NCBI RefSeq assembly: GCF_013373795.3
Contig: NZ_CP088022.1
Span: 4,030,001-4,094,000, forward strand
Source: Bradyrhizobium quebecense
GTDB taxonomy: Bacteria > Pseudomonadota > Alphaproteobacteria > Rhizobiales > Xanthobacteraceae
Length of the DNA: 64,000 nucleotides
Reading direction: 5' to 3'
How positions within the stretch are numbered: position 1 is the stretch's first letter; each line of letters opens with the position of its first letter. This document shows positions 3,930 through 44,778 of the stretch, in pieces. A program made the position numbers and the translations under genes. The notes below the pieces were generated by a model. That model saw nothing but the letters and a program-made list of their open reading frames with translations, made no database searches and was not told where the DNA came from.

Positions 3930-4060
3930 CGAATGTCAATGCAGAGACGATGCAGTCGCGGCGCAGGAACACCTCGCCTGCTCCGAAAGTTGATGACTGC
4001 GGTCGCATGTTTGCCGGAAAAAGGGTGCGATAATCGCGGCTGGAATCACGGAGCCCGCCC

Positions 4061-4735
4061 ATGATCGCAAAGCTCCTCCTGCAGAACACCTTCTTCGTCA
4101 TCGCCATGGCCGCGCTGCTGTTTGCCTTCGCCGGCACCCTGCACTGGCCCGGCGCGTGGGCCTATCTGATCGCCTCGGCGCTGATCGGCCCGGCCTGCGG
4201 GCTATGGCTTGCCAAGGTCGATCCCGGCCTGCTGGCCGAGCGCATGCGCCTCACCGCGCGCGAGGGCCAGCCCGCCGAGGACAAGCGCTTCATGCTGGTG
4301 TTCCTGGTCGTTGCCGTGCTGTGGTTCGTCGCGATGGGGCTGGATCGCCGGTTTGGCGGCGCCGATGCCGGCGTGGCGCTGATCTTGCTCGGCCTGGTGC
4401 TGTATCTGGCCTCGACCGTGCTGATCCTGTGGGTGTTCCGCACCAATTCGTTCGCCGCGCCGGTCGTGAAGGTGCAGACCGAGCGCCACCATCACGTGAT
4501 CTCGACCGGTCCTTACGCGCTGGTGCGCCATCCGATGTATACGAGCGTGATGCTGTTCTTCATCGGCGTGCCGCTGACGCTCGGCTCCTGGTGGGGCCTT
4601 GCCTTCGTGCCGGTGTTCTTCGTGATGTTCGCGATCCGCACCGGGATCGAGGAGCGCACGCTGGTGGCGGGATTGTCAGGCTATGCCGACTATGCGGCAC
4701 GGGTGCGCTATCGCCTCGTGCCTGGACTGTGGTGA
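4061..4735 (+). CDS. Isoprenylcysteine carboxyl methyltransferase-like membrane protein
   Basis: A 224-residue integral membrane protein with about five hydrophobic segments. The C-terminal half carries the ICMT/PEMT pattern: HHHVISTGPYALVRHPMYTS, a membrane hairpin, then a Glu-rich IEERTL segment, which together form the S-adenosylmethionine pocket in this superfamily. The bacterial substrate is not known; isoprenylated proteins are not expected, so a lipid or small-molecule methyl acceptor is more likely. ATG at 4061 is chosen since the hydrophobic N-terminus starts there. Followed nine bases later by the GFA gene. Confidence 0.82.
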   Translation: MIAKLLLQNTFFVIAMAALLFAFAGTLHWPGAWAYLIASALIGPACGLWLAKVDPGLLAERMRLTAREGQPAEDKRFMLVFLVVAVLWFVAMGLDRRFGGADAGVALILLGLVLYLASTVLILWVFRTNSFAAPVVKVQTERHHHVISTGPYALVRHPMYTSVMLFFIGVPLTLGSWWGLAFVPVFFVMFAIRTGIEERTLVAGLSGYADYAARVRYRLVPGLW

Positions 4736-42238: not shown

Positions 42239-42500
42239 GACAGCTATGGATTGGTCAAGCGAGAAGTCGGGGAACGCCGACTGACGATCAAGCTGTAATA
42301 CCTTCGGTGTGCTTGGCGCGGAATTGGCCGCGCCGACATACCCATAACTGATTGGCTATCCATCAGCCGCTGATTTGCCCGTTCGGGCAACTCAGCAAAA
42401 CCTGTCAATCCCGCAATAAGAAAATATTCCGCCTGGCGCCTGACCGAACTCATCGCGGGCATGCGGATGTTTGGCTCACAGACCGTTAAACCTGCTTGGT

Positions 42501-42640
42501 GTCGTCCCTGCGAAAGCAGGGACCCATGACCACCGATCGACATTGTTGAACGAGCCTGGAACGACGGGTCCCTTCACGACATCCGCCGCGGAGGATGGGT
42601 CCCTGCTCCCGTGCGCAATTGCGCACTAGGCAGGGACGAC
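42501..42640. repeat. Dispersed repeat in a 549-base gap
   Basis: Starts GTCGTCCCTGCGAAAGCAGG and ends TAGGCAGGGACGAC, with inverted outer arms and inner copies of GGGTCCC/GGGACCC. It occupies the middle of the gene-free gap between ArsR (42198) and carbonic anhydrase (42748). The rest of the gap shows the ArsR operator and no credible gene. Confidence 0.65.
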
Positions 42641-42747
42641 GATTGTGGGCGCGGCGGTCGCAAGCGCTCGAATGCACCTCGTTGCGAAGGCACTGCGCAT
42701 GACCTACACATATCGCGCGGTGCGGTCCTTGTTCACGGAGAACCTTG

Positions 42748-43500
42748 ATGTGCCAGCTCTGCGAAATCACGCCTCCCAACCGAACCTCCCGGCGTGTCTT
42801 CCTCGCTGGCGCGGCGTGCACCGCGGTCAGCCTCGCCCTTGCGCCGGCTGTGACGGCCAAAGAGACAAGACCGCCGCCGAAGCCGCAGAACGTGCTGCCG
42901 CCGGACGCCGCGCTCGACCGGCTGGTGAAGGGCAACCTGCGTTATGTCGAAGGCATTTCGCGGCGGCATGATTTCAAGCACGAGCGCGAGGCGCTGTCCG
43001 GCGGACAGAATCCGTTCGCCGGCATCCTGAGTTGCGCGGACTCCCGCATCGCACCGGAATACGCCTTCGATACCGGTCGCGGCGATCTGTTCGTCTGCCG
43101 CGTCGCCGGCAATTTCGCCAGCGACGAGATGATCGCGAGCCTGGAATATGCGCAGTCCGTGCTCGGCGTGCCGCTATTCATGGTGCTCGGTCATGACAGC
43201 TGCGGGGCGGTCGACGCCGCGATCAAGTCGCTGAAGGACAACACCACCCTGCCCGGCCATCTGCCCTCGCTGGTCACCGCGATCGCGCCTGCGGTGAAGG
43301 CGACCGAGGGCAAGCCGGGCGACCGGCTCGCCAACGCCATCAAGCAAAACGTCATCGACAACGTCGCGAAGCTCAAGACGGCGACGCCGATCCTCAGCGC
43401 CGCGGTCGATCAGGGCAAGCTCCGGATCGTCGGCGCGGTCTATCGGCTGACCGACGGCAAGGTCGAGCTGGTCACGGACGCCAAGCGACCGGCGACTTGA
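42748..43500 (+). CDS. Exported beta-carbonic anhydrase
   Basis: A 250-residue beta-class carbonic anhydrase. Zinc ligands fit: Cys96 with Asp98 and Arg100 (SCADSR), then His149 and Cys152 (GHDSCG). The N-terminus has a twin-arginine signal, TSRRVFLAGAACTAVSLALA (from residue 13), with cleavage near AVTAK, so it should be exported folded by Tat. It interconverts carbon dioxide and bicarbonate in the periplasm. ATG 42748 is preceded by GGAGAACC. Confidence 0.92.
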   Translation: MCQLCEITPPNRTSRRVFLAGAACTAVSLALAPAVTAKETRPPPKPQNVLPPDAALDRLVKGNLRYVEGISRRHDFKHEREALSGGQNPFAGILSCADSRIAPEYAFDTGRGDLFVCRVAGNFASDEMIASLEYAQSVLGVPLFMVLGHDSCGAVDAAIKSLKDNTTLPGHLPSLVTAIAPAVKATEGKPGDRLANAIKQNVIDNVAKLKTATPILSAAVDQGKLRIVGAVYRLTDGKVELVTDAKRPAT

Positions 43501-43566
43501 ACCTCGGCGCCACCTGCGACCACTGAAGCCAAGAACGACATCGCGTGAGCGACATGGAGAAGGCGG

Positions 43567-43956
43567 ATGTGGCGCCGGCGCGGATGGATTGCTGGAGTGC
43601 TGCTCCTGGTCGTGGCCTCATTGCCGGCACGCGCCGGCGTCGAGCCCTGCAACACGGCGCAGAAGCGGGTCGAAATGATCGCGTTGCTCCGCCATGCCGC
43701 TGAGGACCGGCCGGTCAACATCACCTTCGCAACCCGGACCGATGGCGTGAAGCTGCCCGCCGGCGTGATCGAGCAATATCCCGAGGAGATCACGATCATC
43801 CTGCAGCACGAATTCGATCGCCTCATGGTGAAGGATGAAGGCTTCGAGGTCGGCGTCTGGTTCAATCGCAAATATGCCAGGCTGGCCGTGCCGTTCGGCG
43901 CGATCAGGAGCCTGTGGGACGGCACGGTTCTGATGTGCACGAACAATCAACTGTAG
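43567..43956 (+). CDS. Secreted SspB-like domain protein
   Basis: A 129-residue protein: signal peptide (about residues 1-23, GWIAGVLLLVVASLPARAG), then a domain strongly like SspB, the ClpXP adaptor: VNITFATRTDGVKLPAG, YPEEITIILQHEFDRL and YARLAVPFGAIRSLWD. In SspB the IVLQH and VPFAAIR segments form the tag-binding face. An exported form is unusual, as SspB acts in the cytosol on ssrA-tagged proteins. The C-terminal ClpX-binding tail of real SspB is absent. It follows the carbonic anhydrase gene by 66 bases. Function unknown. Confidence 0.7.
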   Translation: MWRRRGWIAGVLLLVVASLPARAGVEPCNTAQKRVEMIALLRHAAEDRPVNITFATRTDGVKLPAGVIEQYPEEITIILQHEFDRLMVKDEGFEVGVWFNRKYARLAVPFGAIRSLWDGTVLMCTNNQL

Positions 43957-43992
43957 GAAACAGTGGCGTCCCGGCGCAGAGAGCATGCAAAG

Positions 43993-44778
43993 TCAGGTGA
44001 ACGTCGCTTCCACCTTGCCGAGCCCATCGAGCTCCATCACGACTGCGTCGCCCGCCTTCAGCCAGACCGTCTTGACCAGACTGCCGGTCAGCACGATCTG
44101 GCCGGCATGCAGGCCACGGCCCTCGGCGGCGAGATGATTGGCGAGCCAGGCGAGCGCGTTGTGGGGATGGCCGAGCACGTCGGCGCCGGTGCCGCGCCCC
44201 TCCTCCTTGCCGTTGACGAGCGCGCGTCCGGTGATCTTGCGCAGATCGGGCACGGTGATGCGCTGCACGGCTTCGCCGAGCACGCAGCCGGCGGCGAAGA
44301 AGTCGTCGGCGATCAGCGTCGGCGCGCCGAGCGTCTCCCATTTGACATAGCGGTCGTCGACGATCTCGATCGCCGGATGGTAGGCCTCGATCGCTTCCGC
44401 GACCCATTCGGCGGTGAACGGCGCTTCGCCGGGCGCGAGACTGCGCGACAGCCGCACCGCGATCTCGCATTCGACCCCGACATGGACGAAGTCGGCCGCC
44501 GGCAGCCGCACGCCGCTTTCATGCACGACCTTCTCGAATACGCCGCCGCCGCAGGGGTGCGGGATGTTGATGTATTCCTGCATCACCGCGCTGGTGCAGC
44601 CGATCTTGTAGCCGACGAGACTGCCGACCTGCGGCTGCAACAGATCGTGCAGCGCGTATTGCACCTGATAGCCTTCGGCCTCGTCGCGCGGCACGATGTC
44701 TTTGGCGAGCGCCTTGAGCGGCGCGCGGCTGCGGCGCGCGCTGGCGATCGCCTTTGCGGCCGCGAGGATCCGTTCCAT
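43993..44778 (-). CDS. 2-keto-4-pentenoate hydratase-like (FAH superfamily) protein
   Basis: A 261-residue enzyme like MhpD/TesE hydratases: VPRDEAEGYQVQYALHDL, VGYKIGCTS, VECEIAVRLSRSL with the metal-binding Glu residues, and AWLANHLAAEGRGLHAGQI. It probably adds water to a 2-hydroxy-dienoate in aromatic or related degradation. ATG 44778 follows GGGAGG, so the frame upstream to 44832 is rejected. No aromatic pathway neighbours are here. Confidence 0.82.
   Translation of the reverse strand: MERILAAAKAIASARRSRAPLKALAKDIVPRDEAEGYQVQYALHDLLQPQVGSLVGYKIGCTSAVMQEYINIPHPCGGGVFEKVVHESGVRLPAADFVHVGVECEIAVRLSRSLAPGEAPFTAEWVAEAIEAYHPAIEIVDDRYVKWETLGAPTLIADDFFAAGCVLGEAVQRITVPDLRKITGRALVNGKEEGRGTGADVLGHPHNALAWLANHLAAEGRGLHAGQIVLTGSLVKTVWLKAGDAVVMELDGLGKVEATFT

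Follow-up and report, generated by a model that had tools for sequence, protein, structure and literature searches.

The window analysed here, a stretch of 64,000 nucleotides of the Bradyrhizobium quebecense genome, carries on its forward strand a short gene whose predicted product has the domain of SspB and what looks like an export signal. SspB is the textbook adaptor of the cytosolic protease ClpXP, and is best known for holding degradation tags. The features at this locus (positions in the window, all on the + strand) are as follows:

42748..43500, + strand: beta-carbonic anhydrase gene with a twin-arginine-type signal (SRRVFLAG, read by eye), ending 66 bp upstream of the SspB-like gene
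43556..43563, + strand: GGAGAAGG, likely ribosome-binding site, read by eye
43567..43956, + strand: gene for the SspB-like protein (129 amino acids, stop codon included in the coordinates), predicted to be exported
43567..43635, + strand: predicted signal sequence, residues 1-23, with a WRRR n-region, a IAGVLLLVVASL core and ARA before the probable cut
43648..43650, + strand: codon of Cys28, first cysteine of a fixed pair
43720..43920, + strand: Pfam PF04386 match (SspB domain), residues 52-118 (by fold, approximately residues 30-129)
43936..43938, + strand: codon of Cys124, second cysteine of the pair, 96 residues past the first

A scan of positions 42500-44100 for promoters and terminators found none. 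The window protein scores 59.7 bits against PF04386 (cut-off 27 bits), which is also matched by 7/7 other exported members tested; NCBIfam returned no family for it at E<=1. Its predicted structure (a model, not a crystal structure) has the SspB barrel fold and superposes on known SspB structures, a comparison that the sequence-only reading had proposed, and the SspB-like domain claimed there is thus upheld by both the Pfam match and the superposition. That the open frame might be due to chance or a frame artefact was rejected on the Pfam match, the sequence comparison and the agreement in fold. The protein ends 11 residues after D118 and has no ClpX-binding (XB) tail. An FR tail is found in 76/78 canonical SspBs from genomes (the exceptions being L101 and L081, the latter possibly a misread frame) and is absent from the window protein, so the earlier claim that the tail is missing was also correct.

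The same genome encodes a canonical SspB. Specifically, a whole-genome Pfam search gave two SspB matches, namely the window protein (60 bits) and a protein of 158 bits, whose gene lies at C1:4537223-4537684 and encodes the tail RLDRFRKK. The tmRNA gene (C1:4536680-4537046, with the tag ANDNFAPVAQAA) lies on the same strand, and the canonical match starts 177 bases beyond its end. With a separate, tail-bearing sspB beside the tmRNA gene, the cytosolic house-keeping role is filled, and the window protein is, judged by its sequence, to be placed in the SspB domain family and not among the ClpXP adaptors.

Relatives of the window protein were gathered with a single-sequence search (77/113 candidates) and an alignment search (4049/7995 scored, best 120 listed), and 121 proteins of this short form (P0001-P0036 and P0079-P0163), mostly 120-130 residues in length, were examined. 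A signal-sequence rule is satisfied by 115/121 of them, including, as a prediction only, the window protein (P0001); the six misses comprise the frame-shifted P0031, three over-long starts and two short N-termini (judged by eye), and a looser count of hydrophobicity is positive for 116/121. In the controls, the rule was passed by 0/78 canonical SspBs from genomes, by 1/67 canonical-type database matches and by 106/801 neighbouring genes, among which there are truly exported ones. Homologues with the same kind of signal, which the sequence-only reading had suggested looking for, therefore exist in number, and its 'clear signal peptide' holds as a prediction, the signal being kept across the family although its letters vary. 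Cleavage is predicted after ARA. Two other export classes were considered by eye and rejected: a lipoprotein, given that Cys28 lacks a lipobox (its context is EPC), and Tat export of the SspB-like protein, given the absence of an RRxFL motif.

Short-form members with the cysteine pair all (118/118) have an AxA-like site in the 9 residues that precede its first cysteine. Among the 120 members longer than 100 residues, the two cysteines are spaced by exactly 96 residues in 116, by 95 in one and by 94 in one, and two have no such pair; a conserved cysteine pair in the mature part, a mark of periplasmic disulphide-bonded proteins, is thus found in 118/120 at a spacing of 94-96. Neither cysteine varies among 26 diverse members, nor in a second alignment (29/29 rows). 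Of the canonical SspBs at 78 genome loci, 62 are cysteine-free, 11 have a single cysteine and 5 have two, while 64/67 canonical-type database matches contain none and 0/67 have a pair 90-130 residues apart. The fixed pair is therefore an independent pointer to an oxidising compartment, and we infer a disulphide between Cys28 and Cys124 that would join the two ends of the domain. An SspB fold that is exported and carries a disulphide is given a probability of about 0.9.

A second, longer exported form was recognized through a family-wide search, in which five genomes of one other genus had two SspB matches each. In the four of these that were examined (all except G425), three readable genes were present (L162, L163 and L165), all of which begin with a signal-like segment and encode cysteines at both ends, and the match in G349 contains a stop. 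A search with these three sequences, considered for the best 120 of 224 proteins, placed 53 proteins of this long form at the top (P0164-P0216), followed by 67 of canonical type; database matches of the long form bear the names Tardiphaga and Rhodopseudomonas. The signal rule is satisfied by 43/53 long forms (several of the 10 misses have visibly truncated or doubtful starts), a cysteine pair 90-130 residues apart is present in 51/53, and 48/51 with the pair have an AxA-like site before the cysteine. An FR tail occurs in 0/53 long forms against 60/67 canonical-type matches. The predicted model of one long form (P0164) superposes on 2qas with an rmsd of 1.0 over 103 columns, at 40% identity to Caulobacter SspB, and of the two exported forms the long one is the closer to canonical SspB. 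An unrooted tree was built for 42 canonical, 29 short and 3 long forms (74 cores in all) from as few as 99 columns, with two rows flagged as long. In it, the exported forms fall on one branch against canonical SspB (support 100/98), and the short forms make up a single group (support 100/97); a single origin of export is allowed by this tree, but not proven. Among the neighbours of L162, L163 and L165, a CPBP-like membrane protein, a PAS-like protein and a repeat protein were seen by eye.

Residues were compared between 42 canonical rows, from which the misread locus L094 had been removed, and 29 short exported rows. In 21 columns one residue occupies more than 85% of both groups (R34, L41, F54, G60, V61, L67, Y71, P72, L79, Q80, F83, L86, V88, F93, V95, F99, L106, P109, F110, A112 and D118). 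The glutamine Q74 of Caulobacter SspB, which is needed for tag binding, may correspond to Q80 of the window protein; a search of the open-licence literature listed no paper that confirms its role. The short form differs at other sites around this core: (i) the N-helix residues A32, L33 and V36, conserved in canonical SspBs, are lost, and in the models the helix spans residues 31-42 as compared with 40-57 in the long form; (ii) the canonical HHF before strand 1 has mostly become RPV; (iii) W84-D85 after QxxF, and P119, are replaced; (iv) the linker and tail are wholly gone; and (v) C28, C124, R48 and P49 are gained, as is, in 21/29 rows, W98 (from S98). More specifically, tryptophan at position 84 is found in 0/121 short and 0/53 long forms as compared with 64/76 canonical proteins with a motif match (a further 6/76 have D), and aspartate at position 85 in 0/174 exported forms as compared with 55/76 canonical proteins from genomes with a motif match. 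Given the changes before strand 1, at the two positions after QxxF and elsewhere, the ligand of the exported form, if any, is probably not the ssrA tag. Canonical SspB dimerises through its N-terminal helix; with HHF, W84-D85 and P119 replaced and the helix shortened, the groove or the dimer of the short form may be altered.

These observations also bear on a very improbable alternative, in which the N-terminus either does not act as a signal or anchors the protein without being cleaved, so that the tail-less protein remains inside the cell as a decoy that competes with canonical SspB for tagged proteins. The tail of SspB docks on ClpX, as described in PMC8138137, and its loss would indeed give an adaptor that does not deliver. 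However, the AxA-like site before the cysteine (118/118) and the signal rule (115/121) argue against a cytosolic location, a cysteine pair at a spacing of 96 in 116/120 is hard to explain in a reducing compartment, and the absence of D85 from all 121 short and all 53 long forms, compared with its presence in 84/107 canonical proteins (one misread row, L094, included), makes a decoy of the same groove less likely.

Within Bradyrhizobium, an SspB-like gene is present in 59/265 species genomes, with one match each; this number was obtained both with one query sequence (E<=1e-20) and with a diverse alignment (E<=1e-30), the latter giving scores of 155-197 bits. The best family-wide score outside this range was 111 bits, and among the matches listed no other genus fell within it in 296 genomes of the family, 397 of the order and 385 of the class; the order and class searches used a short-form profile, for which long forms score near canonical ones. 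A protein 88% identical to that of the window (P0009) is labelled Vicinamibacterales in a metagenome-assembled genome, perhaps a mis-binned Bradyrhizobium contig. The patchy spread over 59/265 genomes, a remnant in one region (L176, see below) and the rather high dN/dS (0.32-0.67 for the whole gene in 11 comparisons, with one value of 1.55 for the mature part at a dS of only 0.03) might be taken as signs of a decaying duplicate that has no function. Against this, open frames, the fixed cysteines and the core are kept even in members with as little as 41% identity to the window protein, none of the 59 matches in the genus contains an internal stop, and selection on the whole gene is loose yet below neutrality, all of which leaves decay barely credible.

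A more serious alternative, although one that we consider unlikely, is that the SspB fold is a mere scaffold that binds no peptide and docks on an exported partner, for example as a subunit or regulator of the adjoining Tat-type carbonic anhydrase. The anhydrase adjoins the SspB-like gene in 10/10 named Bradyrhizobium records (which overlap with the 59-genome set), and the pairing persists in two gene orders, with the anhydrase directly upstream in 17/59 genomes and directly downstream in 4/59 (coordinates by eye, among the matches listed); the altered sites around the canonical core would also suit a protein that binds no peptide. However, 38/59 genomes show no direct adjacency among the anhydrase matches listed (at least about 344 bits), and in two of the genomes (G156 and G157) 5-7 kb separate the anhydrase from the SspB-like gene. 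In addition, an anhydrase of 71-96% identity occurs in 18 genomes that have no SspB-like match, and 0/18 have an intact SspB-like gene in the surroundings checked (up to approximately 3 kb per side, less at contig ends). For the long form, the four regions examined were without an anhydrase within approximately 5.5 kb. The adjacency in 21/59 genomes, together with the anhydrases that have no SspB-like gene, therefore shows that the pair is real in part of the genus and is not obligatory.

One anhydrase region (L176) has an N-terminal SspB-like remnant at approximately 3962-4096 (E=1.4e-7), just upstream of the anhydrase. Other neighbours vary, and among 51 oriented regions there was no general partner gene, the counts being 18 for carbonic anhydrase and 22 for a PRC-barrel-like protein, the latter named by eye. 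In many of the loci L140-L159 a convergent gene lies 3-27 bp away, and in many Bradyrhizobium (among L126-L161) the SspB-like locus is some kb from flagellar genes (FlgH- and FlgI-like, by eye).

For the exported, disulphide-bonded SspB fold itself, the following course may be proposed. An SspB gene would have been copied in the Bradyrhizobium/Tardiphaga line, and comparison shows that the copy has a Sec-type signal, a cysteine at either end of the domain, and neither the linker nor the ClpX-binding tail. After export, the protein would fold into a small periplasmic SspB barrel with a disulphide linking its two ends, and its groove would most likely still bind stretches of extended peptide or the C-terminal tails of exported proteins. 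It could then serve to bind or hold such segments, or to present them to Prc/CtpA or another periplasmic protease that acts on tails. ClpXP is cytosolic, and the putative exported form has lost the tail for docking on ClpX; by the known route, it therefore cannot carry out the canonical task of a ClpXP adaptor. Binding of peptides or unfolded segments is put at an even chance, and the sequence-only reading, which suggested that the fold may have been reused for peptides in the periplasm, is thus supported in part. The altered sites make the same specificity as that of canonical SspB less likely. The periplasmic protease Tsp/Prc is named among the degraders of tmRNA-tagged products in a review (PMC3985003), and to that extent a periplasmic holder of tags or tails is reasonable. 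Cooperation with a Prc-type protease is considered improbable. A role in which the protein scans the periplasm for polypeptides with tags or exposed tails, including exported proteins tagged by tmRNA, and hands them to the ATP-independent Prc/CtpA is quite improbable; it would amount to a periplasmic quality-control branch of trans-translation with an adaptor of its own.

In the sources, members of the family are mostly named ClpXP specificity-enhancing factor, stringent starvation protein B, or hypothetical or uncharacterised protein. The first of these labels is a standing annotation error, as the role is impossible by the known route. An exported or periplasmic SspB is the subject of none of the papers listed in searches of the open-licence literature, which does not prove its absence from print. 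Two groups of tail-less, cysteine-paired SspBs with predicted export signals suggest that a tag-holding fold has moved to a compartment without AAA+ proteases, and, if peptide binding has been kept, the proteins may represent a new kind of periplasmic tail sensor, perhaps an adaptor of Tsp/Prc.

Among known systems, gammaproteobacterial SspB as seen in complex with the ssrA peptide (1ox9, 1ou8 and 8et3) is an established cytosolic ClpXP adaptor, with which the short form has 12% identity over the aligned part. In relation to alphaproteobacterial SspB (Caulobacter 2qas/2qaz and Agrobacterium 2nys), it adds an export signal and a fixed cysteine pair, has neither linker nor FRKK tail, and shows a short N-helix and a replaced WD after QxxF. 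With the Tardiphaga/Rhodopseudomonas long form it has in common the signal, the cysteine pair, the lack of an FR tail and the grouping against canonical SspB, whereas the long form differs in its length of approximately 144 residues, in cysteines that are mostly 115 apart, and in three features retained from canonical SspB, namely a long N-helix, HH ahead of strand 1, and the FxDPSV turn.
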